Both the position numbers and the translations under genes were made by a program. A stretch of DNA of 54,001 nt from Alistipes sp. (GTDB lineage Bacteria > Bacteroidota > Bacteroidia > Bacteroidales > Rikenellaceae), in the NCBI GenBank assembly GCA_021204515.1, contig JAJPZH010000107.1, positions 1-54,001 of the forward strand, read 5' to 3'. Below, one piece after another: positions 5,451 to 27,032 of this stretch (within the stretch, counting starts at the first letter, position 1; each line of letters opens with the position of its first letter). The notes beneath the pieces are model-generated. The model saw nothing but the letters and a program-made list of their open reading frames with translations. It had not been told where the DNA came from and made no database searches.

Positions 5451-6917
5451 TCAGCGGACCGGCTGCGCCCCGAACAGCGGCCATGCCGGGTCGGGTGTGC
5501 GGGCCTGCCGCATCAGGGATTTCAGTTCGGCCGTTATGGCCGGATATTGGTCCGATAGGTCGTGCCGCTCCGAGGGGTCGTCGTCTAAGTTGTAGAGTTC
5601 GTAACGCGGATTTTCCGTCCGGATGTCGAGATGGAGCAGTTTCCACGGTCCGCGGCGCACCGCCTGCCGGCCGTTTTTCTCCATGAATTCGAAATAGAGG
5701 AAAGCGTGCTCCTGCTGCCCGCCGCGGTTTTCCAGCAGCGGCAGCAGGCTGATCCCGTCGTCGGAGACCGTGTCCGCCCCGCATGCGAGCAGTTCGCCGA
5801 ACGTCGCGGGCAGGTCCCAGAAAGCGCACATGAAATCGGTCTCTGTTCCCGGCACGGTATGCCCCGGCCATGCGACGATCATCGGCACGCGGATTCCGCC
5901 TTCGTACAGATCGCGTTTGTAACCCCGGTAGATGCCGTTGCTGTCGAAGAAGTCGGGATCGGCACCGCCCTCGCGGTGGGGACCGTTGTCGCTTGAGAAG
6001 ACGATGATCGTATTGTCGTATACGCCACTCTCTTTGAGCTGCTGCACGAGTTCGCCGACGTAATGGTCGAGACGGGTGACCATGGCCGCGAATGCCGCCC
6101 GCGGGCAGGGCTGCGAGCAATAGCCGCCTTTGCGGAAGTTTTTGCCGGAGTCGGTCCCGACATAAGGTGTTTCGGGATAGAGTCCGCGGAAACGTTCGGC
6201 GATGCTGTCCTGCGGCATGATGAGTTCGGCGTGGGGAATGGTCGTGGGGTAGAAAAGAAAGAACGGTCCCTGCCGGGCGGCTTTGTTGATGAATTCGAGC
6301 GCCCGCGCATGGATCAGGTCCGGGGCGTAGGAGCCTTTGCCGTAAGGCACCGAGTCCGTGTTGTCCGCCAGTTCGATACGGCGGTTTCCGTCCCACAGAT
6401 GGTCGGGGTAGTAACTGTGGGCGAGCAGCTGGCAGTTGTATCCGTAAAACCGGTCTACGCCCTGCCGTGCCGGATCGCCCGTGGAACCGACGAAGCCGAG
6501 GCCCCATTTGCCGAACACGCCCGTCGTGTAGCCTGCGTTCCTGAAGTTGAGGAACAATGCTGCGGCTCCTTCGGGCAGGGGATATTGTCCTTCGGGCGGG
6601 AGTTCGATGTTTCCCCTTACGGGTGTATGTCCCGAGTGGGTTCCCGTAAGCAGGCATGAGCGCGACGGGGCGCTGACGGTCGTCCCGGCGTAACACTGGG
6701 TGAAGCGCATGCCGGCCGCGGCCAGCGAGTCGATATGCGGAGTCCGGAATTTCCGCTGTCCGTAACAGCTGAGATCGCCGTAGCCGAGATCGTCGGCGAG
6801 GATGAACAGTACGTTGGGCCTGCGTGCCGGCTGCGGTGCTGGATTCCGGGCCGAAGTCCGGTCGACTCCTGCCAGTCCGGTCAGCAGGACGCCGCTGAGT
6901 AAAAGACGGTAGTTCAT
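5451..6917 (-). CDS. Exported sulfatase, S1 family, Ser-type
   Basis: This 488-residue arylsulfatase-like enzyme hydrolyses sulfate esters. Members in gut Bacteroidota usually act on host glycans, but the substrate cannot be read from the sequence. An N-terminal signal peptide (about residues 1-23) sends it to the periplasm. The mature part opens with PNVLFILADDLGYGDLS, whose Asp pair (42-43) binds calcium. The active-site signature is S82-A-P-S-R86 followed by SCLLTG, so the residue converted to formylglycine is Ser, not Cys. Maturation needs a radical-SAM anaerobic sulfatase-maturating enzyme, which is not in this window. Length is normal. A near-consensus -7 box (TATCTTTA, 6954-6947) is visible. 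It stands alone, with no SusC/SusD pair nearby. Confidence 0.95.
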   Translation of the reverse strand: MNYRLLLSGVLLTGLAGVDRTSARNPAPQPARRPNVLFILADDLGYGDLSCYGQRKFRTPHIDSLAAAGMRFTQCYAGTTVSAPSRSCLLTGTHSGHTPVRGNIELPPEGQYPLPEGAAALFLNFRNAGYTTGVFGKWGLGFVGSTGDPARQGVDRFYGYNCQLLAHSYYPDHLWDGNRRIELADNTDSVPYGKGSYAPDLIHARALEFINKAARQGPFFLFYPTTIPHAELIMPQDSIAERFRGLYPETPYVGTDSGKNFRKGGYCSQPCPRAAFAAMVTRLDHYVGELVQQLKESGVYDNTIIVFSSDNGPHREGGADPDFFDSNGIYRGYKRDLYEGGIRVPMIVAWPGHTVPGTETDFMCAFWDLPATFGELLACGADTVSDDGISLLPLLENRGGQQEHAFLYFEFMEKNGRQAVRRGPWKLLHLDIRTENPRYELYNLDDDPSERHDLSDQYPAITAELKSLMRQARTPDPAWPLFGAQPVR

Positions 6918-7047
6918 AAAGGTCGGGATTGGTATGAAAAACGGACTAAAGATAGGAATAATATTCCGGATAGCGGAGTCTGCGGACTAAAACCTCGCAG
7001 GGGTGTGTTTTTTCGGCTTTCGGTTCCGGTTTTGTCGGGGAATTTGT

Positions 7048-7055
7048 TATTTTTG
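7048..7055 (+). promoter_or_regulatory. -7 promoter box upstream of the U32 gene
   Basis: TATTTTTG matches TAnnTTTG and lies 16 bases before the ATG. The -33 element is not clear. Confidence 0.5.
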
Positions 7056-7071
7056 CAAAAATAAATAAAGC

Positions 7072-11976
<4,905 letters not shown>

Positions 11977-13388: not shown

Positions 13389-13961
13389 TCAGAATACGTA
13401 ATAGATCAGGATTCCCGCTGCGGCCGAGAGGGCGATCAACAGAATGGGATTCACTTTTTTGACCGAAGCGATGAAGACGCCGCCGAACAGCGCCCAGCTC
13501 CAGCCGTCGATGAAATTCTGCTCGTCGGGGGCTTTGCTATGGGGGAACATCAGCAGCAGCGCCGCCGACGCGATCATGCCGATCACCACGGGCCGCATGC
13601 CTTTCATGGCTCCTTCGACGAGCGGATTTTGCTTGAGCCGCAGGAAGAAGCGCGTGATGAGCAGCATCAGCGTCAGCGAGGGCAGGCAGACCGCGAATGT
13701 CGCCAGCGCCGCCCCCAGAATGCCGCACCACTCGTTTCCGGCCTGCGCGCCGACGGTATAGCCGACGTAGGTCGCGGAGTTGATGGCGATGGGGCCGGGC
13801 GTGATCTGCGAGACGGCCACGATGTCGGCGAATTCGGCGTTGGTCATCCATGCGTGCTGGACGACCACTTCGTTCTGGATCAGGGAGAGCATGGCGTATC
13901 CGCCGCCGAAGCCGAAGAACCCTATTTTGAGGTAGCTTGCGAAGAGTTGCCAGAAGATCAT
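13389..13961 (-). CDS. CHR-family (chromate-type) transporter, half-size subunit 2
   Basis: This 190-residue membrane protein is one CHR domain: an N-terminal FGFGGGYAML motif, followed by the QITPGPIAINSATYVGY signature and about six membrane segments. Full-length ChrA is two such domains fused; short CHR proteins come as pairs and act together. CHR proteins export chromate in resistant bacteria, but many homologues in organisms that never meet chromate have unknown anion substrates. Its ATG overlaps the stop of the partner half (13958-13961, ATGA), so the pair is translationally coupled. It is the last gene of the Ehr operon. Confidence 0.92.
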   Translation of the reverse strand: MIFWQLFASYLKIGFFGFGGGYAMLSLIQNEVVVQHAWMTNAEFADIVAVSQITPGPIAINSATYVGYTVGAQAGNEWCGILGAALATFAVCLPSLTLMLLITRFFLRLKQNPLVEGAMKGMRPVVIGMIASAALLLMFPHSKAPDEQNFIDGWSWALFGGVFIASVKKVNPILLIALSAAAGILIYYVF

Positions 13962-14506
13962 TTTTTTGCCTTTTTAGTGATGAGCAGCGTCCATGAAATG
14001 CCGATCGCGGCCGCGGCGATCAGGATGTAGATCGGCGACCAGCCCAGATACCATACGGCGAAGGCCGCCGCCGCGATGACGAAGAACATCGACCAGTGCA
14101 TGCCGCGTGCGAGCGAAAAAACCGGCACCACGATCAGCGCAACGACAGCCGGGCGCATGCCCTTGAAGGCCGCGTCCACGACCGGATTGTGGCGGATGTC
14201 GGCGAACAGCAGGGCGATTGCGAGGATGATGACGAACGACGGCAGGACGCTGCCCAGCAGTGCCGCGACGGCACCTTTGAGACCCCGCATCTTGTAGCCG
14301 ACGAATACCGAGGTATTGATGGCGATCGGTCCGGGAACCGACTGCGCGAGGGTCAGCAGGTCCAAGAATTCCTTGTGCTCGATCCATCCGCGCTTGGCGA
14401 TCAGCTCCTGCTCGATGAGCGGCAGCATGGCGTATCCGCCGCCGAAGGTGAAAAGCCCGATCTTGAAGAACGAGGCGAAAATCGTTCGGAGTCGTTGCAT
14501 GGTCAT
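13958..14506 (-). CDS. CHR-family (chromate-type) transporter, half-size subunit 1
   Basis: This 182-residue single CHR domain has the FTFGGGYAMLPLIEQEL motif near residue 20 and the QSVPGPIAINTSVFVGY signature. It pairs with the following gene, with which it shares about the same length and topology. Its ATG (14506) overlaps the stop of the upstream small-subunit gene as ATGA, placing it in one translationally coupled unit with the Ehr complex. A second in-frame ATG two codons later could also serve. The transported anion is unknown. Confidence 0.92.
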   Translation of the reverse strand: MTMQRLRTIFASFFKIGLFTFGGGYAMLPLIEQELIAKRGWIEHKEFLDLLTLAQSVPGPIAINTSVFVGYKMRGLKGAVAALLGSVLPSFVIILAIALLFADIRHNPVVDAAFKGMRPAVVALIVVPVFSLARGMHWSMFFVIAAAAFAVWYLGWSPIYILIAAAAIGISWTLLITKKAKK

Positions 14507-15267
14507 TCGCGTTTTTTCTTGCCTAACAGGTTGAGGATGCCGTCGATGAAGGTCATCGGATGCGTCGGGGCGCCCGGCAGCCAGAGATCGGCGGCGTGCG
14601 TATCGAAGAAGGTGCGGTCCACGGCGCGGCTGCCGGCGAACAGACCGCCCGAACAGGCTTCCGAGCCGCAGACGACGAGGATTTTGGGATCGGCAACGGC
14701 ATCGCAGCAGATTTGCAGCGCTTCAGCCATATTGACCGTGATCGGGCCGGACACCACCACGCCGTCGGCATGGCGGGGCGAAGCGGTGAAGCCGATGCCG
14801 TAACGTCCCAAGTCGAAATTGACGTTGCCCGTGGCGTTGAGTTCCATTTCGACCGATGCGTCGCCCCCGGCGCAGACCTCGCGCAGTTGGAGCGAGCGGC
14901 CGAAGTAGCGGCCGATTTCGGGGCGTACGGCCGCGGGGTCGAACCGCACGCATTTGTCGCCGGGCCGCACGACGAGTCCTTCGCGCGTCGGCGAGCCGAT
15001 GCGGTAGTCGTTCGTGAAGCGGATATTGCGCGGCGCCGTGCGGGCGCATTCGCCGCAGAAGAGACAGCGGCCGAGGTCGAGCGAGAGCGGCGCGGTGGTC
15101 AGCGCCCCGGTGGGGCAGATTGCCGCTGCCCGTTCGAGGTCCGCGGTGTCCGGGGTTTCGGTCAGTTCGGGCCGTCCGCGGAACTCTTCGGTCAGTTCGA
15201 CGGCGTCGAGATCGGGAATGTATTGTTTCCCGTGGCTGCGCAGTACTTTTATTTTCGGTAGTATCAT
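14503..15267 (-). CDS. Ehr complex small subunit (HycG/NuoB-like) with N-terminal ferredoxin domain
   Basis: This 254-residue protein has two parts. The N-terminal part (about residues 40-115) has C51 in CPTGA and C68/C71/C74 in CLFCGEC, enough for one [4Fe-4S] cluster. The C-terminal part (about residues 120-250) is homologous to HycG/NuoB: YGIGFTASPRHADGVVVSGPIT, EACSGG and a DGILNLL end. The proximal-cluster ligands that HycG and NuoB share are mostly missing. The first pair position reads DASVE (136-140), the last one reads GAPTHP (232-237) instead of GCPP, and only C205 remains. It is therefore unlikely to hold the usual N2-type cluster. The start at 15267 gives MILPKIKVL, 11 bases after the large-subunit stop. 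Confidence 0.9.
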   Translation of the reverse strand: MILPKIKVLRSHGKQYIPDLDAVELTEEFRGRPELTETPDTADLERAAAICPTGALTTAPLSLDLGRCLFCGECARTAPRNIRFTNDYRIGSPTREGLVVRPGDKCVRFDPAAVRPEIGRYFGRSLQLREVCAGGDASVEMELNATGNVNFDLGRYGIGFTASPRHADGVVVSGPITVNMAEALQICCDAVADPKILVVCGSEACSGGLFAGSRAVDRTFFDTHAADLWLPGAPTHPMTFIDGILNLLGKKKRE

Positions 15268-15278
15268 GTTTTTCGTCT

Positions 15279-16790
15279 TTACAAATCGTGGCCGCAGTAG
15301 GAGAGGTTGAAACTCTTGTTGCAGATCGGGAAGTCCGAAATGCCTTCGCCGCGCACGGCCAGCGCCAGTGCCAGCCAGTTGTGCAGGCTGGGGTCCTTGA
15401 TGCGGCAGGCGGCGATCCGGCCTTGGGCGTCGGTCAGCAGGACGTGGCACGTTTCGCCGCGCCACCCCTCGATCAGCCCGAACGCGAGCGAATTGGGTGC
15501 GGGTGGAGCGGCATAATCGGGTGCAGGCAGGCTTCCGGGGACATAGTCCGCCAGCAGGCGGTCGATATACCCGGCCGATTGCAGCACCTCGCGGCAGCGC
15601 ACCATCAGACGCGCCATCACGTCGCCGTGGCGTTTGACGATGCTTTCGTGCCGGATCGTTCCTGCGAAAACGCCCCACGGGTGCGTGGCGCGGATGTCGC
15701 GGGCCGCGCCGCTCGCGCGGGCCGCCTGACCCACGCCGCCGATGCGGAGCATCTCCTCGCGCGGCACGATGCCGCACTGCTCGAAGCGGGCCAGCAGCGT
15801 CGGCGACGACTTGATGTCGCGGCGCACTTCGTCGTAACGGCGGGCGATCTGCGCGACGTTGCGGCGGATCGTCTCCGCCTTTTCGGCCGTCAGCGGATGG
15901 TTCGTGCCGCCGGGGCGGATCAGCCCCTTGCCGAAGCGGTTGCCGCACCACGCCTGCGTGGTGTTGATCGTCATCGTCCGGAGCGCTTCGCAGGCCACCT
16001 GTCCCAGCTGGTAGCCGACGTCCATGCAGAGCGCGCCCGTGTCGGCGATCTGCATCGCCATCCGTTCCAGTTCGAGCGCTACGGCGCGTTCGACGCCGAG
16101 CCGTGCGGAGGGGACGCCGCCCGTGAGTTTCTCGACCGCCGACGCGAACGTGGCGGCGTGGGTCACGGCGCTGTCACCCGCGACGGCTTCCGCGAGACAC
16201 ATCTGCCGCAGGCGGTTGGCCGTAGTCTCGAATTCATGCTCGACGCCGCGGTGCTGGTATCCCAGCGCGATTTCGAGGTGGAGCACCTGCTCGCCGTTGC
16301 AGATGAAGCGGAACGCGCCCGGTTCGATGATTCCCGCATGAATCGGGCCGACGTTCACTTCGTGCAGCGAACGGCCCTCCATCGTGTAGAAAGGGTAGTT
16401 GTCCATCGTACTGCCGCGGTCGAACCGGTCGAACGGAAAACGCAGCGGCTTGGGCCACGGCATGCCGTCGAAACGCACGCCGTAACGTTCGGCGATGTCG
16501 CGCTCGAACGGGTGCACCTGCGGGTGCAGGGCCGTGAGCGAAGGGAGTTCCTGCTCGTCGTAGTACTCCATGGCGTGCGACGCGATCAGCACCTTGGCCT
16601 CCGTGTCGTCGAGCAGCAGGCAGAAGAACCGGAGCCGGTCGCCGAGCGGCAGGGCGAAATAGTGGGCTATATGGTAACGCGCGTCGGCCAGCTTGGCGGC
16701 CAGATCGGCGTAGAATTCGGCGTACGACGCTTCGGGAATTTCCGACAGCGGTACGGCGGGGGCTGTATTATCGGTTATATAATATTTCAT
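15279..16790 (-). CDS. Ehr complex large subunit (HycE/NuoCD-like) lacking NiFe ligands
   Basis: This 503-residue protein has an N-terminal NuoC/HycE-like domain (about residues 1-130) fused to a NuoD/hydrogenase-large-subunit domain (about 140-503) with the landmarks VGPIHAGIIEPG and GYQHRGVEH. In true hydrogenases the NiFe atoms are held by two CxxC pairs. Here the first pair aligns to A204 and S207 (in EAVAGDSAVTH), and the second aligns to S497 and G500 in FNLSYCGHDL, where a single displaced Cys remains. It therefore cannot form a NiFe centre and matches the energy-converting-hydrogenase-related (Ehr) group. The ATG at 16790 overlaps the stop of the preceding antiporter-like gene (ATGA). 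Confidence 0.92.
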   Translation of the reverse strand: MKYYITDNTAPAVPLSEIPEASYAEFYADLAAKLADARYHIAHYFALPLGDRLRFFCLLLDDTEAKVLIASHAMEYYDEQELPSLTALHPQVHPFERDIAERYGVRFDGMPWPKPLRFPFDRFDRGSTMDNYPFYTMEGRSLHEVNVGPIHAGIIEPGAFRFICNGEQVLHLEIALGYQHRGVEHEFETTANRLRQMCLAEAVAGDSAVTHAATFASAVEKLTGGVPSARLGVERAVALELERMAMQIADTGALCMDVGYQLGQVACEALRTMTINTTQAWCGNRFGKGLIRPGGTNHPLTAEKAETIRRNVAQIARRYDEVRRDIKSSPTLLARFEQCGIVPREEMLRIGGVGQAARASGAARDIRATHPWGVFAGTIRHESIVKRHGDVMARLMVRCREVLQSAGYIDRLLADYVPGSLPAPDYAAPPAPNSLAFGLIEGWRGETCHVLLTDAQGRIAACRIKDPSLHNWLALALAVRGEGISDFPICNKSFNLSYCGHDL

Positions 16791-18187
16791 AACGCGGCGA
16801 TTTCGGTGATGATCCGTTGCAGAAGTTCCGACTGCCACATGCCCAGCACGACGGCGGCAGCGAGCAGCGACAGGGCCGACCACGAGAGCGCCTTGTGGGC
16901 TTTCGACGGGTGCAGACGGTCCTGATTGGGCTGGTAGCAGAGCCGGATCAGGCGCGATCCGAACGAGTAGATGACGATGCACATCAGCAGGAGCAGACCC
17001 GCCACGAGCCACCAGTTTTGGTCGGTGATGACCTGCTTGAGGATCATCAGCTCGGAGACGAACAGCGGCGAGGGCGGGAAGGCCAGCAGTACGACCATGC
17101 CCGTCAGCAGGCCGACGGCCCCGACGCGGTTGATGCGGATGTAGTCGCCGATGCGGTTGATGCGGTAGCTGTCGTACACCTGCCGTACGACGGCCATCTG
17201 CAGGAAAAGACTGCTCTTGACGAGCGTATGGCAGAATACGTGGAACAGCGCCGCCCATACGCCGATGCCGCCGATGCCCAGTCCGATGGCGGCGATGCCC
17301 ATGTTCTCGACGGTGGAGTAGGAGAGGAAGCGCTTGTAGTTGTTGGTGCGGCGCAGGAAAAGCGCGCCCACGCCGAGTGAGAGGATGCCCACGATGAGCA
17401 GTACCGAACGCACCCACGGGAAAACTTCCGTCCCGGCGAGCAGTTTGTAGACGCGCAGCAGCGCGAGGAATCCGGCGTTGACCAGTCCCGTGGAGATCAG
17501 CGCCGAAGCCGGTGCGGGGGCCGCGAAATTGGCGTCTATGCCGACCGTATAGAGCGGGAACAGCTCCATTTTGCAGCTGTAACCGCTGAGGATCAGCAGG
17601 AACGCCGTCTTCAGGTAGAGCGGGTAGCCCGACGAGGCCGCTTCGGCGACGGCTTCGTACGAAAGCGTTTCGCACTTGGTCGCGGCGGCCAGCAGCAGGA
17701 TGCCCAGATAGGCCATGGCGATGCCCGTCGAGCAGACGAAGACGTATTTCCACGCCGCTTCGAGCGCCTGCGCCGTGCGGCGGTGGTAGATGATGCCCGC
17801 CGAACAGAGCGTCGTCGCTTCGAGGAAGATCCACGTCACGGCGAGGTTGTTGGCGAAATAGGCTCCGGCGATGGCCGTGGTGAGCAGCATCAGCAGGGCG
17901 AAATAGAGGCGGTAGGAGCGGATGTTGTCGTTCTGCAGGTAAGCTTCCGAATGGCCGAAGACGTACATCGAGACGACGACCAGCAGCAGATAGAAAAGCG
18001 TGCCGAGCGCGTCGAAGGTGAAGAATGCGGCCGAGGTCGTGTCGTAGAGTCCGCCCCAGAGCAGCAGGCCCGCGGCGGCGATCTGTACGGCGTAGAAGAG
18101 TATGCCGGCGGCGAGAACCGCACGTTTGGTCCGGGCGAAGAGCGCCGCGACGGCGATCAGGATGCTGGCGATCAGGTAGTATATCAT
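16787..18187 (-). CDS. Ehr complex antiporter-like membrane subunit (HyfF/NuoN-like)
   Basis: This 466-residue polytopic protein of the proton-translocating NADH dehydrogenase / Mrp antiporter family has about 14 membrane segments. Expected landmarks are present: a membrane Glu in TWIFLEATTLC, a Lys segment in GYSCKMELFPLY, YKRFLSYSTVENMG, and FHVFCHTLVKSSLF with the conserved His/Lys pair. It should carry protons or sodium. It overlaps the large-subunit start by four bases and starts 4 bases after the HyfE-like gene. Confidence 0.93.
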   Translation of the reverse strand: MIYYLIASILIAVAALFARTKRAVLAAGILFYAVQIAAAGLLLWGGLYDTTSAAFFTFDALGTLFYLLLVVVSMYVFGHSEAYLQNDNIRSYRLYFALLMLLTTAIAGAYFANNLAVTWIFLEATTLCSAGIIYHRRTAQALEAAWKYVFVCSTGIAMAYLGILLLAAATKCETLSYEAVAEAASSGYPLYLKTAFLLILSGYSCKMELFPLYTVGIDANFAAPAPASALISTGLVNAGFLALLRVYKLLAGTEVFPWVRSVLLIVGILSLGVGALFLRRTNNYKRFLSYSTVENMGIAAIGLGIGGIGVWAALFHVFCHTLVKSSLFLQMAVVRQVYDSYRINRIGDYIRINRVGAVGLLTGMVVLLAFPPSPLFVSELMILKQVITDQNWWLVAGLLLLMCIVIYSFGSRLIRLCYQPNQDRLHPSKAHKALSWSALSLLAAAVVLGMWQSELLQRIITEIAAL

Positions 18188-18191
18188 GGCG

Positions 18192-18821
18192 TCAGTCCTT
18201 TACGTTGGTGAGTGAATCGGCGTCGTCGGCGTGTATCTTGCCGTCGATCTTGGTGAAGAAGATACCCAGCATCAGCACCGAGATCAGGATGTCGAGCAGG
18301 ATGGCGAAGTTGATCAGCAGCGGCATTTCGACGCCTATGGCCATCGAAAAGAGGAAAACGCCGTTCTCGATCACCAGAAAGCCGACCATGTGCGAGAAGA
18401 TGCGTGAGCGCAGGACGATTAGGATCAGGCCGCTCAGCAGGGCGTATAGCGCCACGCCGAAGAATACGAGGTCGATGGCCGAGTCGGCGATGTAGTAGGT
18501 AATCGAAGCGCTGACCGCCAGCGCCATGAGCGACAGCAGGAGCGAACCCGACTGCGACGATCCGGAGCGGCGTACGCGGTTGATCTTGGTTTTGCGGATC
18601 ATGGCGAAGAGAATGGCCGGGACCAGCAGGGCCTTGAACGCCAGCGTCTCGATGGCGATGAAGATCAGTTCCAGCGGATTGATGGCGTGCAGGCGCAGCA
18701 GGGCGACGGCGAAGAGAATCCACCCCTGCAGTCCGATGATCGACGCGAAGTTGCGGAAACGTTCGGTGATCGCCAGATAGACGAGCGTGATGACGTAGAG
18801 TATGACCAGCGGGAGTATCAT
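18192..18821 (-). CDS. Ehr complex membrane subunit HyfE-like
   Basis: This 209-residue protein with six or seven membrane segments is homologous to HyfE, whose C-terminal part corresponds to NuoK/MrpC. Visible landmarks are the N-terminal LVYLAITERFRNFASIIGLQGW and the NuoK-like stretch HMVGFLVIENGVFLFSMAIG, in which the in-membrane Glu of IENG is the expected proton-pathway residue. The start at 18821 (MILPLVILYV) is chosen because it overlaps the previous stop as ATGA and gives the family's usual length (about 210-220). Confidence 0.92.
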   Translation of the reverse strand: MILPLVILYVITLVYLAITERFRNFASIIGLQGWILFAVALLRLHAINPLELIFIAIETLAFKALLVPAILFAMIRKTKINRVRRSGSSQSGSLLLSLMALAVSASITYYIADSAIDLVFFGVALYALLSGLILIVLRSRIFSHMVGFLVIENGVFLFSMAIGVEMPLLINFAILLDILISVLMLGIFFTKIDGKIHADDADSLTNVKD

Positions 18822-19732
18822 TGGATGCTGATGTTTAGTTGCAGCAGGTAGCCCGTGAAGAAGCCCACAGCCGCCAGAGCCGCGATGGTGAGAATGAATG
18901 TGGTGTTGCGCGAGAGTTTGTTGCGGGCCTGCGTCGATTCGACCACGCCGACCGAGAGTCCGGTGAGGAGTACCGCCAGCGGCGCCGCGGCCCACCAGTG
19001 GGGGCAGAGCGCCGCCGTCACGGCATCGGCCGCCAGCATCGACAGCGCCGCGGTTTTGAGCCACCCGGCGATTTTGATCATGCCGAGGTCCGTGCCGCAG
19101 TAGTCGAGACACATCACCTCGTGGATCATCGTCAGTTCGAGGTGGGTGCGGGGATCGTCCACCGGTACGCGGCCGCTTTCGGTGAAGACGATCTTCACCA
19201 GCACGTAGGCCGTGAGCAGCAGCAGAACGGTCAGCTGCAGGTCGCCCGTCGCCGCTTCGGCGAAGATCCGGGCGAACGACGTATGTCCCGCCAGCAGGGC
19301 CAGCGTGCCGGCCGTGAGCATGAGCGCCGGTTCGACCAGCGCGCCGTAGAGGGCCTCGCGGCTCGCGCCCATGCCTTCGAACGAACTTCCGGTGTCCATG
19401 GCGCCGAGTATCAGCGCGAAGCGGCCGAGAGCCATCAGGTAGGCGAAGCAGACGATGTCGCCGTTGAACGACAGCAGGGGTTTCAGTTCCCCGACGGGGA
19501 TGAAGAGTGCGGCGACGATTGCCGAGCCGAGGTAGACCGACGGCACGGCGCGGAACAGCGCCGATGCGGTCGTCGAATAGACCGCGCCTTTGCGCAGCAG
19601 CAGGCGCACGTCGTAGAGGTGCTGGGCGAAGCGGATGCCCCGGCGGCCCGCCAGCACGGCCCGCGTGCGGTTTATCAGGCCCGGAATGCAGACGGCCGTC
19701 AGCAGGATCAGGAGAGTGTTGAGTGCCGTCAT
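18818..19732 (-). CDS. Ehr complex membrane subunit HyfC/NuoH-like
   Basis: This 304-residue membrane protein of the NuoH/HyfC/HycD family anchors the hydrophilic arm to the membrane arm. About eight membrane segments are seen. The family landmarks are GINRTRA-like GLINRTRAVLAGRRG near residue 20, a YDVRLLLRK loop, and ESGRVPVDDPRTHLELTMIHE (about residues 175-196), which holds the conserved acidic residues of the quinone-side or E-channel loop. Length matches HyfC (about 310-320). It starts two bases after the HyfB-like stop. Confidence 0.93.
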   Translation of the reverse strand: MTALNTLLILLTAVCIPGLINRTRAVLAGRRGIRFAQHLYDVRLLLRKGAVYSTTASALFRAVPSVYLGSAIVAALFIPVGELKPLLSFNGDIVCFAYLMALGRFALILGAMDTGSSFEGMGASREALYGALVEPALMLTAGTLALLAGHTSFARIFAEAATGDLQLTVLLLLTAYVLVKIVFTESGRVPVDDPRTHLELTMIHEVMCLDYCGTDLGMIKIAGWLKTAALSMLAADAVTAALCPHWWAAAPLAVLLTGLSVGVVESTQARNKLSRNTTFILTIAALAAVGFFTGYLLQLNISIQ

Positions 19733-19734
19733 TG

Positions 19735-21720
19735 TCAGATCAGGTTAAAGATGGACAACAGGAATATCAGGACCAGAAACGCCAGCGCGAAGAGTACGTA
19801 GTGGTTGATTTTGCCCGTACGCAGGCGCATGGCGCGCTTGTTTATCACGCGCAGCAGTTCGACCCACCACGCCGCGAAGAGTTTGTCGAAACGGTCCTTG
19901 TGGCGGATGTCGAAGTTGTGCGCCGCAGGGAAAATCTCGCCTTTGCCGACGGCGCCGCCTTCGCCGCTGTTCTGCGTGAGCGACGTGGCGATCGACTGCA
20001 GTCCTTCGGAGTAGGATTCGCCGCTGTACTGCATCCGCACGTTGGGCGAGGTGAAGCCGCAGCCCCACGTCGCGCCTTCGGCCACCTTGCGCGTGCGCAA
20101 GGCGCGGCTGCGGAGCCATGCCAAGAGTCCGACGACCAGAATCAGCAGCCATGCCGTGCGGCTGACGGCCGCCAGCGTGGGCGACAGCAGGTAGTCCGCC
20201 GCATCGGCGGGGTGGTGGATGAAAAATCCCGCGGCGCGGGTTACCACGCCCACGGCGGCCTGCGGAAAGAGTCCTATGAAGAGGATTCCGGCCAGCGGCA
20301 GCGCCATGGCGGCGATGCGGAAATTATCGACCTCGGAGGCTTCGGCCACTTCGTGCGTGCGGGGCGCGCCGAGGAACACCGTGCCGTAGAGTTTGGTGAA
20401 GGCCAGAATCACCACTCCGCCGATCAGCGCCAGCGCGGCCAGTCCGGCTGCCGAAGCGAGTACGTCGCTGCCCGAAGCGATGCCGTCGAGCATGCCGAGG
20501 TAGATCAGCAGTTCCGAGACGAATCCGTTGAGCGGCGGCAGGGCGCAGATGGCCGCCGTGCCGGCCAGAAACAGCAGGCCCGTGACGGGCATGTGTTTGC
20601 CCAGTCCGCCCAGTGCGTCGAGCGACGTGGTGTGCGTTTTGGAGAGTATGTTGCCGGCTCCGAAAAAGAGCAGCGATTTGAACAGCGAATGGTTGAGCGT
20701 GTGGAGCAGTGCGCCCGAGAGACCGCAGATCGCCGCGAGCTGGTTGCCCGAACTCTTGCCCAGCGCAGCGATGCCCAGTCCGATCAGGACGATGCCGATG
20801 TTTTCGATCGACGAGTAGGCCAGCAGCCGTTTCACGTCGTTCTGCGCCGCGGCGAGGATCACGCCCCAAAGTCCCGTGACGATGCCTGCGACGAGCAGGA
20901 TCAGGCCCGCGGTGCGGAGTGTCGGCAGGTCGGCGATCTGCGCCGTGACGCGCAGGATGCCGTAGACGCCCGTCTTGATCATCACGCCCGACATCAGGGC
21001 CGAGACATGCGACGGGGCGGCGGGATGCGCTTCGGGAAGCCAGACGTGCATCGGGAACATGCCGGCCTTCATGCCGAAGCCCGCGAGGAAGACCACGAAC
21101 AGCGGCAGGGCGGGCTGCGTGCGGAAATATTCGCCCAGCAGGGCGAAGTCGGCCGATCCGCAGACGCTGTCCAGCCGCACGAAGCCGATGAGCAGCAGGG
21201 CGAATCCCACGTGCATCATGATCACGTAGGCCAGTGCGGCGCGGCGCACTTCGCGGCGCTCGGCGTCGAACAGGATCAGCAGGAACGATGCGACGGTCAT
21301 CAGCTCCCAGAAAAAGAGAAACGAAAATCCGCCTTCGGAGGTCACTACGCCCAGCATGGCGTAGAACATCGCCGCCAATGCGGTGTAGTGCAGCGAGATG
21401 TGGGCCGGGGATTTGCGGCTTAGGTAATGCGCGAGATACCCCCGCGAATAGAGTACTGCGGCGACGGCTCCGACCGAGACGATCAGTACGAACAGCGCCG
21501 AAAGAGGGTCCATCGAACCTGCGTCGCTTCCGAAGAGGAAGACGCTGGTCGCCCACAGCCGTACGGTATGTCCGCCGGCAAGCACTCCGACGGCCGTTGC
21601 CGACGCCCAGAGCGCCCCCGCCGCGACCACTGCCAGCGCCGCCCACACCTTGGCTTTGAGGGGAGCGGCGAATATCAGCGCCGTCACCACCGCCAGCGCG
21701 AGAAGTGAATAGAGAAACAT
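19735..21720 (-). CDS. Ehr complex antiporter-like membrane subunit (HyfB/NuoL-like)
   Basis: This 661-residue polytopic protein of the NuoL/NuoM/HyfB family has about 16 membrane segments. Core landmarks are FSFLFFWELMTVASF (membrane Glu), SALMSGVMIKTGVYG (Lys), DVKRLLAYSSIENIG, and LLHTLNHSLFKSLLF with the His/Lys pair. The C-terminal extension beyond residue 500 resembles the HyfB/HycC tail. It is the first gene of the eight-gene operon and probably the distal cation pump. No obvious promoter is seen in the 172-base gap upstream. Confidence 0.94.
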   Translation of the reverse strand: MFLYSLLALAVVTALIFAAPLKAKVWAALAVVAAGALWASATAVGVLAGGHTVRLWATSVFLFGSDAGSMDPLSALFVLIVSVGAVAAVLYSRGYLAHYLSRKSPAHISLHYTALAAMFYAMLGVVTSEGGFSFLFFWELMTVASFLLILFDAERREVRRAALAYVIMMHVGFALLLIGFVRLDSVCGSADFALLGEYFRTQPALPLFVVFLAGFGMKAGMFPMHVWLPEAHPAAPSHVSALMSGVMIKTGVYGILRVTAQIADLPTLRTAGLILLVAGIVTGLWGVILAAAQNDVKRLLAYSSIENIGIVLIGLGIAALGKSSGNQLAAICGLSGALLHTLNHSLFKSLLFFGAGNILSKTHTTSLDALGGLGKHMPVTGLLFLAGTAAICALPPLNGFVSELLIYLGMLDGIASGSDVLASAAGLAALALIGGVVILAFTKLYGTVFLGAPRTHEVAEASEVDNFRIAAMALPLAGILFIGLFPQAAVGVVTRAAGFFIHHPADAADYLLSPTLAAVSRTAWLLILVVGLLAWLRSRALRTRKVAEGATWGCGFTSPNVRMQYSGESYSEGLQSIATSLTQNSGEGGAVGKGEIFPAAHNFDIRHKDRFDKLFAAWWVELLRVINKRAMRLRTGKINHYVLFALAFLVLIFLLSIFNLI

Positions 21721-22674: not shown

Positions 22675-22706
22675 CAAAGTTACATAAATAACATGAATAG
22701 ATGAAA
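22675..22706 (-). promoter_or_regulatory. Promoter for rsmE
   Basis: On the minus strand, TTTC (22706-22703), 20 bases, then TAACTTTG (22682-22675). The -33 box lies within the first codons of the divergent M3 peptidase gene. Confidence 0.7.
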
Positions 22707-24875
22707 CGTATTGCAGGTTTATTCACAACACTCTTACTGCTTATGGCACTTGCGTCATGCAACTCCCCGAAAAGCGCAGGGGAGAATCCGTTCTTCAGCC
22801 AGTGGGACACGCCTTTCGGCGTGCCGCCCTTCGATAAGATCCGCGCCAAACACTTCATGCCCGCCTTCGAGCGCGGCATGTCGCTGCACGACGCCGAGAT
22901 CGACGCCATCACGTCGAACAACGACGAGACGACGTTCGAGAATACGATTCTGGCTTACGACAACGCCGGGCAGATGCTGGCTCAGACCGAGCTGATTTTC
23001 GGCATGCTCTGCGCCGCCGAGACCAACGACCGGATGCAGGCTCTGCAGGAGCAGGTGATGCCCCTGCTCTCGGCGCACCGCGATAAAATCCGGCTCGACG
23101 AAAAACTTTTCTCCCGCGTGAAGGATGTCTATGACCGGCGCGCGTCGCTGGGGCTCGACGCCGAGCAGAGCCGACTGCTCAGGAAGACCTACGACGCTTT
23201 CGTGCGTGCCGGCGCCCTGCTCGACGCCGGACAGAAGGCCCGGCTGAAGGAGATCAACGGCGAACTGTCGCTTACGGCCGTGAAATTCGGCAACAACATG
23301 CTGGCCGAGAACAATAACTTCGCGCTCGAACTGACGACGGCGGACGACCTCGACGGTCTGCCTACGGGTGTCCGGGACGCTGCGCGCGAAAAGGCGCAGG
23401 CGATGGGCAAGGGCGACAAGTGGGTATTCACGCTCCACAAACCGAGTCTGATTCCGTTTCTGACCTACTCGACCAAGCGCGACCTGCGCGAAAAGATCTA
23501 TAAGGCGTACCTGAACCGCTGCAACAACGGCGATCAGTACGACAATAAACAACTTATCAACGATTTCATCCGCCTGCGGACGGAGAAGGCCAAGATGCTG
23601 GGCTACCCGTCGTACGCCGCCTATGTCGTGGCCGACGAGATGGCCGGCACGACCGATGCGGTTTACTCGCTGCTGGACCAGATATGGACTCCGGCGCTCG
23701 ATCGTGCCAAGGACGAACTGGCCGAGATGGACAAACTCCTGCAGCAGGACGTTCCGGGCGCGACGTTCGAGTCGTGGGACTGGTGGTATTACGCCGAGAA
23801 GCTGCGCAAGAAGAATTATGCCCTCGACGAGGAGATGCTGCGGCCCTATTTCTCGCTCGAAAACGTGCAGGGCGGCATCTTCTACCTCGCCAACCGGCTT
23901 TACGGCATCACCTTCCAGCCCATCGTGGCGCCGCTCTACCACCCCGAGGCGATCGCCTACGAGGTGCTCGACGCCGACCAGTCGCATCTGGGCGTGCTCT
24001 ATTTCGACTTCTTCCCGCGCGACGGCAAGAGTCAGGGGGCGTGGTGCGGCAACTACGTCGAACAGACCTACCGGGACGGCGAGCGCGTCGCTCCCGTGGT
24101 GAGCATCGTCTGCAACTTCACCCGGCCGGTGCGCAACACCCCTGCGCTGCTGACGCTCGACGAGACCGAAACGCTTTTCCACGAATTCGGCCATGCGCTC
24201 CACTTCCTGTTCCACGACGTGAAATACCGCGGCCTTACGGAGGTCGAGGGCGACTTCGTGGAGCTTCCTTCGCAGGTGATGGAAAACTGGGCCTTCGAAC
24301 CCGAAATGCTGAAACAGTACGCCGTACACTACCGCACGGGCGAGGTGATTCCCAAATACCTCGTCGATAAACTGCGCAGGAGCGAACTCTTTAATCAGGG
24401 CTTCGCCACTACGGAACTGATTGCCGCGTCGCTGTCCGACATGGACATCCATTCGACGACCGATTACGAACCGTTCGATCCGATGGTGTTCGAACGCAGG
24501 GCGCTCAATGAAAAACGCGGTCTGATTCCGCAGATCGAACCCCGCTACCGTTATCCCTATTTCAGCCATATTTTCGACGGCGGCTATTCGGCGGGCTACT
24601 ACTTCTATACGTGGGCCGAGGTGCTCGACAAGGATGCGTTCGCGGCCTTCCGCGAGAGCGGCGACCTGTTCAACAAGAAGATCGCCGCCGATTTCCGTAC
24701 CAAGATCCTCGCACGCGGCGGTTCCGAGGACGGAATGACGCTCTACCGGGCCTTCCGCGGGGCCGATCCCGACAAGCGGGCGATGCTCCGTGGCCGCGGC
24801 CTGCTCGCCGAACCCGATCCGCAGCCGGACGAAGAGACCCCGATTCCCCTCGAACCGGAATCGGACGGGCAATAG
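22701..24875 (+). CDS. M3-family zinc metallopeptidase (Dcp-like), lipoprotein
   Basis: This 724-residue thimet-oligopeptidase/Dcp-type peptidase cleaves short peptides, classically releasing C-terminal dipeptides. The zinc motif H494-EFGH is within LFHEFGHALHFLF, and the third ligand Glu follows in a GDFVELPSQVMENW segment. The N-terminus has a lipoprotein signal with lipobox ASC near residue 20, so the enzyme is tethered to a membrane in the envelope rather than cytoplasmic as E. coli Dcp is. Length is normal (about 680-720). The ATG is overlapped by a three-codon mini-frame at 22693 that ends on its own start (ATGA), which might modulate initiation. A paralogue follows directly. Confidence 0.96.
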   Translation: MKRIAGLFTTLLLLMALASCNSPKSAGENPFFSQWDTPFGVPPFDKIRAKHFMPAFERGMSLHDAEIDAITSNNDETTFENTILAYDNAGQMLAQTELIFGMLCAAETNDRMQALQEQVMPLLSAHRDKIRLDEKLFSRVKDVYDRRASLGLDAEQSRLLRKTYDAFVRAGALLDAGQKARLKEINGELSLTAVKFGNNMLAENNNFALELTTADDLDGLPTGVRDAAREKAQAMGKGDKWVFTLHKPSLIPFLTYSTKRDLREKIYKAYLNRCNNGDQYDNKQLINDFIRLRTEKAKMLGYPSYAAYVVADEMAGTTDAVYSLLDQIWTPALDRAKDELAEMDKLLQQDVPGATFESWDWWYYAEKLRKKNYALDEEMLRPYFSLENVQGGIFYLANRLYGITFQPIVAPLYHPEAIAYEVLDADQSHLGVLYFDFFPRDGKSQGAWCGNYVEQTYRDGERVAPVVSIVCNFTRPVRNTPALLTLDETETLFHEFGHALHFLFHDVKYRGLTEVEGDFVELPSQVMENWAFEPEMLKQYAVHYRTGEVIPKYLVDKLRRSELFNQGFATTELIAASLSDMDIHSTTDYEPFDPMVFERRALNEKRGLIPQIEPRYRYPYFSHIFDGGYSAGYYFYTWAEVLDKDAFAAFRESGDLFNKKIAADFRTKILARGGSEDGMTLYRAFRGADPDKRAMLRGRGLLAEPDPQPDEETPIPLEPESDGQ

Positions 24876-24911: not shown

Positions 24912-27032
24912 ATGAAAAAAGCACTTATCATTATGACCTTTTCAGCTATGGCGGCAGGCTGCGCCGACAATTCGATTCCCAAAGCGCAGCTGCCCGAACT
25001 GGATACCACCAACCCCCTGCTGGCGGAGTGGAACACGCCCCATCAGACGCCGCCGTTCTCGCAGATCGAGCTTTCGGATTACGAGCCTGCGTTCGATGCG
25101 GCCATCGCCTGCTCGCGCGCCGAGATCGAGGCGATCGTCAAAAACCCCAAGAAGCCGACGTTCGGCAATACCATCGTGGCGCTGGAGCGTCAGGGAGCGC
25201 TGCTCGATCGTATTTCGGGCATCTTCTACAACCTGCTCGAAGCCGCGACTTCGGACCAGATGCAGGAGATCGCGCTCCGCGTTCAGCCCAAGCTCACCGA
25301 GCTGTCGAACGACGTTTCGCTCAATCCGGAGCTTTTCGCCCGTGTGAAGGCGGTTTACGAGAAACCCGGCCGCGGTCTTTCGAAGGAGGACAAGAAACTG
25401 CTGGAAGATACCTATCAGAGCTTTGCCCGCAGCGGCGCAGCCCTTTCGGACGCCGATAAGGAGCTTTACCGCAAGTATACCTCCGAGTTGTCGGCCGCGA
25501 CCCTGCAGTTCGGTCAGAACGCGCTGGCGGCGACCAACGCCTTTACGATCAATATTACCGACCCGAAGGTCGTTGCCGAGCTGCCCGCATTCGTCCGGGA
25601 GGGTATGGCCGCCGACGCCAAGGCACGCGGCGAGAAGGGCTGGACCGTGACGCTGCAGGCGCCGAGCTATGTGCCGTTCATGACCTATTCGTCGAACCGT
25701 GCGCTGAAGGAGAAGCTCTGGCGCGCCTACAATTCGCGTGCGCTGGGCGGCGAGAATGACAACACGCAGATCGTGAAGCAGATCGCCAACCTGCGTCTGA
25801 AGATCGCCAACCTGCTGGGCTACAAGTGCTATGCGGATTACGTGCTCGAACGCCGTATGGCCGAAAACACCCCGACCGTCACGGCGTTCCTCGACGAACT
25901 GCTCGGCGAGACCAAGGCCTATGCCGACAAGGATTACCGGATGATCGGCGACTATGCCGCTTCGCTCGGCTTCAAGGGCCAGCTGATGCCGTGGGACTGG
26001 GGCTATTACAGCAAGAAATACAAGGACGAGAAATATGCGCTCAACGACGAGGTCGTGAAGCCCTATCTGAAGCTCGAAAACGTGAAGAAGGGCGTGTTCA
26101 TGCTTGCCAACAAGCTTTACGGCCTGAATTTCACGCCCAATGACAAGATCGAGGTCTATCATCCCGACGTGACGGCTTACGACGTAACCGACGAGAACGG
26201 CCGCTTTATGGCCGTGCTCTACCTCGACTTCTTCCCCCGCGAATCGAAGCGCTCGGGAGCGTGGATGACCGAATTCCGCGGTACGAAGATCGAGGACGGC
26301 GAGGAGACCCGTCCGCTTGTGTCGCTGGTGATGAACTTCACCAAACCTACGGAAACCGCGCCGTCGCTGCTGACGTTCGACGAGCTGGAGACTTTCCTCC
26401 ACGAGTTCGGACACGCCCTGCACGGTATGCTGGGCGAGGGCGAATACGAGTCGCAGACCGGTACGAACGTCTACCGCGACTTCGTGGAGCTTCCTTCGCA
26501 GATTATGGAAAACTGGGCTACCGAGAAGGAATTCCTCGACCTGTGGGCCGTGAATTACCAGACCGGCGAGCCGATTCCCGCCGAGATCGTGGACCGCATT
26601 ATCGCGGCGCAGAACTATCTGGCCGCCTACCTGAACGTGCGCCAGTTGTCGTTCGGTCTGACCGACATGGCTTGGCATACGATCACCGAACCCTTCGAGG
26701 GCGACGTCGAGCAGTTCGAAGTGGCGTCGATGGCTCCCTCGCAGGTCGTGCCCGTCGTGCCGGGTACGGCGATGGCCCCCGCTTTCGGTCATATCTTTTC
26801 GGGCGGTTATGCCGCCGGTTATTACGGCTACAAGTGGGCCGAGGTGCTGGAAGCCGACGCTTTCTCGCTCTTCAAGGAGAAAGGCATCTTCAACCGCGAA
26901 GTATCCGGATCGTTCCGCGAGAACATCCTTTCGAAAGGCGGTACGGAACATCCCATGGAGCTTTATGTGCGTTTCCGCGGTCACAAGCCCGAAACCAAGG
27001 CGCTGATCGAAAAGATGGGGCTGGGGAAGTAA
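24912..27032 (+). CDS. M3-family zinc metallopeptidase (Dcp-like), second lipoprotein paralogue
   Basis: This 706-residue paralogue of the preceding gene is collinear with it along its length. Its zinc motif is H497-EFGH in FLHEFGHALHGML, followed by DFVELPSQIMENW. The lipobox AAGC near residue 17 predicts envelope anchoring. The 36-base spacer has a near-match -7 box (AATATTTG), so it may have its own weak promoter as well as read-through from the first copy. The two have diverged considerably, so this is an old duplication with possible split of peptide preference. Confidence 0.96.
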   Translation: MKKALIIMTFSAMAAGCADNSIPKAQLPELDTTNPLLAEWNTPHQTPPFSQIELSDYEPAFDAAIACSRAEIEAIVKNPKKPTFGNTIVALERQGALLDRISGIFYNLLEAATSDQMQEIALRVQPKLTELSNDVSLNPELFARVKAVYEKPGRGLSKEDKKLLEDTYQSFARSGAALSDADKELYRKYTSELSAATLQFGQNALAATNAFTINITDPKVVAELPAFVREGMAADAKARGEKGWTVTLQAPSYVPFMTYSSNRALKEKLWRAYNSRALGGENDNTQIVKQIANLRLKIANLLGYKCYADYVLERRMAENTPTVTAFLDELLGETKAYADKDYRMIGDYAASLGFKGQLMPWDWGYYSKKYKDEKYALNDEVVKPYLKLENVKKGVFMLANKLYGLNFTPNDKIEVYHPDVTAYDVTDENGRFMAVLYLDFFPRESKRSGAWMTEFRGTKIEDGEETRPLVSLVMNFTKPTETAPSLLTFDELETFLHEFGHALHGMLGEGEYESQTGTNVYRDFVELPSQIMENWATEKEFLDLWAVNYQTGEPIPAEIVDRIIAAQNYLAAYLNVRQLSFGLTDMAWHTITEPFEGDVEQFEVASMAPSQVVPVVPGTAMAPAFGHIFSGGYAAGYYGYKWAEVLEADAFSLFKEKGIFNREVSGSFRENILSKGGTEHPMELYVRFRGHKPETKALIEKMGLGK

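Follow-up and report, generated by a model that had tools for sequence, protein, structure and literature searches.

Energy-converting hydrogenase-related (Ehr) complexes have been described from Geobacter, comammox Nitrospira and Riflemargulisbacteria as machines of unknown function that lack the NiFe ligands, and a redox role is assumed for them in the portions of these reports available to us (PMC6349859, PMC10284858, PMC7894505), with a formate dehydrogenase as partner and an unknown acceptor in the openly accessible text; the founding papers are cited in PMC4378227. We analysed a 54,001-nucleotide stretch of Alistipes sp. DNA (assembly GCA_021204515.1, contig JAJPZH010000107.1, positions 1 to 54,001; the window) that carries an operon resembling the Ehr complexes, as far as those texts describe them, in its group 4 hydrogenase-like and complex I-like subunits, its antiporter-type membrane proteins and the absence of NiFe cysteines. 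The published accounts, in the same portions, mention the missing NiFe ligands alone, whereas the clade of the window also lacks the ligands of two iron-sulfur (Fe-S) clusters, N2 and N6a, a comparison made with the published descriptions. The Ehr class is already known and the clade without N2 and N6a appears to be new; a mostly open-access literature search, which leaves a prior description possible, returned nothing relevant on the loss of these clusters or on the operon in Alistipes or Bacteroidales.

The group 4 [NiFe] hydrogenases, among them the E. coli formate hydrogenlyase HycBCDEFG and the MBH of P. furiosus, agree with the window's complex in fold, in the types of subunit and in order of relatedness but have four NiFe cysteines in two CxxC pairs, a proximal cluster and one ferredoxin-domain cluster that are missing here, and their HypD maturation is absent from the window's genome. 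The ferredoxin domain of HycF and NuoI holds two [4Fe-4S] motifs, whereas that of the window's small subunit has one complete site. Complex I (NDH-1) has a homologous core, with the NuoM charge set recurring in hyfB and NuoH-like glutamates in hyfC, but the window's operon has no NADH module and its small subunit has none of the N2 ligands of NuoB. A distant match with the same fold was the group 4-like sulfane reductase MBS of P. furiosus (6u8y; large subunit, E = 5.4e-12; small subunit, E = 1.4e-6), which, going by its entry title, is a complex without hydrogenase activity. MBS keeps the proximal cluster.

The operon comprises six genes on the minus strand (14503-21720), all with open frames, transcribed in the order hyfB, hyfC, hyfE, hyfF, large subunit (L) and small subunit (S); two CHR-family genes adjoin the end of S. 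Adjacent genes abut or share 4 bases throughout, apart from gaps of 11 bases before S and 4 bases before hyfF, which makes a single eight-gene transcript likely. The initial annotation had recognised six genes forming a full group 4/complex I-like set and had assigned them to the Ehr type, and both points hold: group 4-like L and S lie in one operon with HyfB/C/E/F-like subunits and without NiFe cysteines. Its range, 13389..21720, does contain the operon but left unmentioned the two CHR genes within it. Pfam and NCBIfam families seen in the operon were Proton_antipo_M, NADHdh, Complex1_49kDa, Complex1_30kDa and Oxidored_q6; all listed NCBIfam matches fell under their curated cut-offs, which leaves the complex without a curated name in NCBIfam. 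The gene order was the same in named relatives with long enough contigs.

Fe-S ligands of the small subunit

S (14503..15267, minus strand) joins a ferredoxin domain and a NuoB-like domain in one protein, and its cysteine ligands were read in alignments. The four cysteine positions of the proximal, N2-type [4Fe-4S] cluster are occupied by D136, V139, E203 and A233, the ligands of the outer, N6a-type ferredoxin cluster are also missing, and one complete site is left, that of the middle, N6b-type cluster (C51, C68, C71 and C74). Judged by sequence, S is the remainder of a former three-cluster chain N6a-N6b-N2 with the middle [4Fe-4S] site alone left. With the N2 and N6a ligands missing, the usual electron route into the pocket of L is interrupted. 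The earlier view that the NiFe site is gone was right, but the accompanying view was too mild, namely that nothing beyond this site is missing and that only donor and acceptor need settling: the ligands of two further clusters have gone as well. Misaligned cysteines were ruled out as an explanation: by two methods the SPRHAD, PGxPxHP and GxxAxSGG flanks can be matched to MbhJ, HycG and NuoB with no gaps, and relatives that retain N2 have Cys in those very columns.

A profile of S (E <= 1.3e-90) found 88 full-length places in 87 of the 393 sampled Bacteroidales genomes, and 15 full-length places in 395 sampled Bacteroidota genomes, the window's own included; together with the named loci, all these places gave 179 rows for a survey of residues. 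Rows were classed as N2-plus or N2-minus by three diagnostic positions of S (136, 203 and 233), position 139 being the least constrained of the four ligand positions. All three were Cys in 17 of the 179 rows and none was in 161, one of which has a gap; a single fragment has two of the cysteines. Loss of the N2-type ligands is in this sense all-or-none. Within Bacteroidales the 88 places divided into 84 N2-minus and four N2-plus. The substitutes are themselves conserved, with D or E at 136 in 161 rows, D or E at 203 in 159 (otherwise one N and one A) and N, A or T at 233. The N6a motif was present in 14/17 N2-plus and 0/160 N2-minus rows, and the N6b cysteines in all 177 rows with letters there; N2 and N6a therefore go together and N6b stays. 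The 14 N2-plus rows with the motif rule out that N6a was lost across Bacteroidota as a whole.

These counts bear on the plainest alternative, namely that this is an ordinary Ehr complex in which the NiFe site alone has gone and electrons pass through S to an acceptor at L. The N2-plus relatives in the same family (17/179), the N2-plus outgroups L125 and L126 and 13 of 14 plasmid loci with N2 are in its favour, but the three diagnostic cysteines are absent from the window and from 160 other rows, which contradicts it for a canonical cluster, and we regard it as unlikely.

Trees were built from Bacteroidota, plasmid and Hyc rows; L127, the host genome's own NuoB with cysteines at 138/139, was omitted from the later ones. 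Before the four N2-plus rows of Bacteroidales (L214-L217) were included, two trees placed the Bacteroidota N2-minus rows in one clade, with support of 95/83 in one of them. Once these four rows were added, the best tree required four changes and the bootstraps three to four, only one being forced by well-supported branches. The single origin read from the first two trees becomes one of several possible histories, with one to four changes. N2 may have been lost in Bacteroidota once or a few times, and transfer or regain is possible. Five named loci that lack S (L003, L012, L017, L075 and L077) were left out of the survey; a full S lies elsewhere in three of these genomes and a 56-residue fragment in one, and in the remaining one S was not found. 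Conversely, in genome G057 an N2-minus S gene (L145, 9503-10264) stands alone beside TPR and PD-(D/E)XK transposase-family genes, with the rest of the operon absent from the fetched flank. L080, though of Alistipes type, carries the label of an alphaproteobacterial metagenome-assembled genome, perhaps through mis-binning.

Relatives in other phyla hold other combinations of clusters. Related large subunits occur in 234 plasmid records, 40 of which were listed; from these 40, 14 loci were picked by hand, and in all 14 a NuoB-like gene follows the large subunit. In 12 of them this protein has 169-180 residues and carries the N2 cysteines but lacks a ferredoxin domain; no open reading frame with a CxxCxxCxxxC[P/G/E] motif was found in their fetched 6.5-10 kb flanks. 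N2-only relatives occur in Azospirillum brasilense Sp7 and Cupriavidus metallidurans CH34. A Variovorax locus has both the N2 cysteines and the ferredoxin domain. On a Variovorax plasmid a second Ehr operon comes after the first (L152:15433-21260), incomplete at the end of the fetched stretch, and in one of the 14 loci, L225, the GD[ST] pattern of the large subunit gave no match. The last of the 14, from Allomeiothermus silvanus (Deinococcota), has the ferredoxin domain without N2 ligands (T136, D139, E203 and S233) and falls apart from the Bacteroidota N2-minus rows, on a long branch of unsure placement; it seems to have lost N2 separately. The forms among the relatives examined thus comprise three-cluster, two-cluster (L113-L115 and L125), N2-only and N6b-only proteins, and since Allomeiothermus and the N2-minus Bacteroidota lack the N2 ligands and 12 plasmid loci lack the ferredoxin domain, these forms have not one Fe-S cluster in common. 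A wider and tentative proposal, doubtful at present, is that the Ehr class as a whole consists of non-redox ion-motive machines, whose pocket would have a non-redox job (e.g. on CO2/HCO3- or another anion) and whose Fe-S clusters would be dispensable accessories. If so, the window's clade would be a natural experiment showing clusters kept or lost in varied combinations by lineage.

Large-subunit pocket and membrane arm

L (15279..16790, minus strand; 503 residues) is a fusion of 30-kDa and 49-kDa domains (PF00346, E = 6e-32; PF00329, E = 2.3e-5), and its closest solved relative is HycE of the formate hydrogenlyase (7z0s_E; Foldseek TMq 0.80). In the alignment to E. coli HycE the four NiFe cysteines correspond to A204, S207, S497 and G500, C499 falling between S497 and G500, the same assignment as had been made initially. 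It extends to the 170 relatives examined (window included), among which Cys occurs at 204 in one row and at 207, 497 and 500 in none, and C499 in 151. In place of the NiFe cysteines the pocket end carries D206, S207, S497, Y498, C499, G500 and D502. Thirteen checked pocket and core positions (G205, D206, R243, D257, D365, R367, E441, E446, N491, S497, Y498, G500 and D502) are invariant in 17/17 N2-plus and 147/147 N2-minus rows, indicating that the head of L has been retained without its electron wire; H143, H151, E156, E184, E201 and S/T207 are close to invariant in both classes. In an alignment of L to Thermus Nqo4, the quinone-binding Tyr of the 49-kDa subunit of complex I may fall on G205.

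The ratio of nonsynonymous to synonymous substitution rates (dN/dS) against six relatives was 0.12-0.19 for S and 0.19-0.25 for L, values low enough to indicate purifying selection. Together with the six intact and mostly touching or overlapping frames, the presence of S in 87 of the 393 Bacteroidales genomes and the invariant pocket residues, this makes it very improbable that the operon is a decaying relic heading for loss, as might be supposed from the loss of the NiFe site and two clusters and from the genomes in which S has moved or was not found.

The membrane arm was compared over 16 rows of mixed N2 class, L147 (G261) counting among the N2-plus rows, and its charges are alike in both classes. 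hyfB (19735..21720, minus strand), a NuoL/M-like antiporter-type subunit of 661 residues (PF00361, E = 5.8e-54; NCBIfam hydrogenase 4 subunit B, E = 7.7e-152, under its cut-off), has the NuoM-like charge set E139, K218, K249 and E403 in 16/16 rows. The NuoH/HycD-like subunit hyfC (18818..19732, minus strand; 304 residues; PF00146, E = 2e-24) retains the buried acids E126, E134, E185, D192, E199 and E205, the NuoH-like glutamates, again in all 16. hyfF (16787..18187, minus strand), a second antiporter-type subunit (466 residues; PF00361, E = 8.4e-37), has E123 and K206 in every row and E or K at 379, and N237 replaces its middle Lys (NuoM K265, NuoN K247). The small membrane subunit hyfE (18192..18821, minus strand; 209 residues), which overlaps hyfC by 4 bases, matched the NCBIfam hydrogenase 4 membrane subunit E under its cut-off (E = 1.8e-11) and nothing in a Pfam search at a threshold of 0.01, and the alignment made here gave no counterpart of NuoK E36/E72. 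The expectation that the membrane subunits keep their charged residues is thus largely borne out, namely for the hyfB and hyfC sets and for E123 and K206 of hyfF, but not for N237 of hyfF or for a NuoK E36/E72 match in hyfE. Three other Bacteroidota loci (L137, L141 and L144) have two tandem hyfB-type frames before hyfC, giving three antiporter-type subunits, as in complex I.

Proposed coupling without the canonical electron wire

In complex I an electron covers well over 20 A on its way from N6b through N2 to the substrate, and in the absence of N2 that distance would be too great for useful tunnelling. Electrons at the middle cluster would then not reach the pocket of L at useful rates, and a complex with no useful electron path between the two would not be a ferredoxin-driven hydrogenase-like reductase. 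Because the electron hand-off to the pocket would be blocked, yet pocket and ion path are fully constrained, the job of the pocket is best explained as something other than electron transfer. We accordingly favour, at about even chances, an Ehr-type ion-translocating complex that may have no need of the canonical wire and would couple ion flux to a non-redox event. H+ or Na+ would pass via hyfB, hyfF and hyfC. The coupled event might be simple cation/proton exchange of the Mrp kind, or else the handling of a small molecule in the pocket of L, with CO2/HCO3- or some other anion as the leading candidate. The cluster that is left could be structural, or serve as a redox sensor gating the ion path.

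Ion flux is coupled to non-redox small-molecule handling in DAB and NDH-1MS. A further lead to the job of the pocket comes from the SulP and EIIA genes next to N2-plus operons (described below). In the accessible text on DAB2 (DabA/DabB), a NuoL-like ion-conducting subunit drives non-redox CO2 hydration, as a vectorial carbonic anhydrase (PMC13144422), and BicA, a SulP-type Na+/HCO3- symporter, is discussed beside Mrp-type clusters in the portion available of PMC7784846. The window's operon differs from DAB2 in having no DabA-like annotation, no search having been aimed at the DabA family (DUF2309), and L holds no sequence evidence for carbonic anhydrase chemistry.

Several observations weigh against the non-redox proposal. 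Position 139 of S is Cys in 64/160 N2-minus rows, though not in the window, and extra cysteines lie near the lost N2 site: C187, C200 and C205 occur in 74/75, 63/75 and 46/75 rows of the window's family and in 138, 76 and 45 of all 160 N2-minus rows. The missing cysteines may thus leave room for a non-canonical cluster or another cofactor, and an invariant middle cluster would be unneeded by a purely non-redox machine unless structural or sensory. AlphaFold pLDDT (its per-residue confidence) is below 50 at the lost ligands and at the pocket end (S 135-150, L 481-503), so that pocket geometry is not readable there. CO2/HCO3- or another anion is at most a candidate substrate, and genes for the SulP anion permease and the PTS-EIIA regulator, which adjoin N2-plus operons (see below), occur in 0/7 N2-minus flanks, of which L137 and L144 have almost nothing upstream of hyfB and L145 is S alone.

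Part of this evidence could also accommodate a redox pump with a shortened path, in which ferredoxin would reduce the middle cluster, with a quinone at a new nearby site or a bound partner as acceptor; a conformational change would then drive ions, and the pocket of L would serve for proton relay only. Both the invariance of C51, C68, C71 and C74 and the Rnf encoded in the genome, which makes a ferredoxin pool likely, are compatible with such a pump, but no partner gene travels with the operon, the usual entry-side cluster N6a is lost, and the middle cluster holds one electron with no conserved next carrier. It is conceivable, and we doubt it.

The gene content of the host was surveyed in its draft genome (G000; 3.54 Mb, 97% complete, with the window on contig C133). 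No match was obtained for PF00374, HypD (PF01924) or [FeFe] hydrogenase, the HypD search having matched 4/14 genomes, E. coli included, as a control; hence no hydrogenase of either kind was found in the draft. No NADH module (NuoE/F/G) was present among the open reading frames near the operon, and the sole PF01512 match in the genome falls within the 448-residue frame that also matches RnfC. The initial statement that the window holds neither an NADH module nor maturation genes can thus be extended to the draft genome, as far as searched. A separate canonical NuoB lies on contig C150 (L149) beside antiporter-type genes, and since the only PF01512 match is RnfC, the host likely also has a complex I without the NADH module.

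The interest lies in a widespread clade with pocket and ion path but no electron wire, that is, in machine halves separated by natural selection. If the complex pumps or exchanges ions, it allows coupling in the complex I superfamily to be examined apart from electron transfer; if it is still a redox machine, it must use an unknown route. Both outcomes are relevant to the way chemistry and ion flow are linked in complex I.

Transporters and other neighbouring genes

The two genes after S are CHR-family (chromate transporter) halves: chrA2 (13958..14506, minus strand; PF02417, E = 8.5e-54) overlaps the stop of S by 4 bases and chrA1 (13389..13961, minus strand; PF02417, E = 7.2e-52) overlaps chrA2 by 4. 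Neighbour genes were classed by single linkage, which mixes families, so that firm names are confined to proteins put to Pfam; with this proviso, chrA2 directly follows S in 34 of the 74 assessable named loci, and 40 have no chrA neighbour. In ten of the 40 a Na+:alanine symporter-type gene takes its place, as identified through Pfam for one of them. The symporter-family gene lies almost directly after S at L026:10427-11830 and in nine other Rikenellaceae loci. A SulP anion permease gene, a PTS-EIIA gene or both adjoin the operon in 8/10 N2-plus flanks (SulP in four, EIIA in seven), and in the outgroup L143 a 720-residue SulP-STAS-EIIA fusion (5979-8141) lies inside the Ehr operon, between the L and S genes. 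No SulP or EIIA gene was found in eight annotated plasmid loci, and a search for SulP in the window's genome found none. The loss of an electron-input gene along with the wire was ruled out, the N2-plus neighbours being SulP and EIIA and not redox proteins.

It might be argued from the frequent position of chrA2, its overlap with S and the SulP and EIIA genes of the N2-plus operons and of L143 that the chrA pair is a working part, the complex energising anion export or import by CHR (and by SulP in N2-plus relatives). This is quite improbable, given the loci in which chrA is missing or a symporter-type gene stands in its place and the absence of SulP and EIIA from the N2-minus flanks, the annotated plasmid loci and, for SulP, the window's genome. 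chrA2 is probably co-transcribed with the operon and not a core part of the complex. As ion-coupled or anion transporters, the CHR, Na+:alanine symporter and SulP neighbours fit an ion-gradient machine, but ordinary operon drift as well.

Upstream of hyfB, directly and on the same strand, lies an RNA methyltransferase-type gene (PF04452; 21893-22606), and a similar-sized gene precedes hyfB in most named Rikenellaceae loci. Beside the operon, a pair of M3-family peptidase genes (22701-24875 and 24912-27032) lies in tandem on the plus strand.

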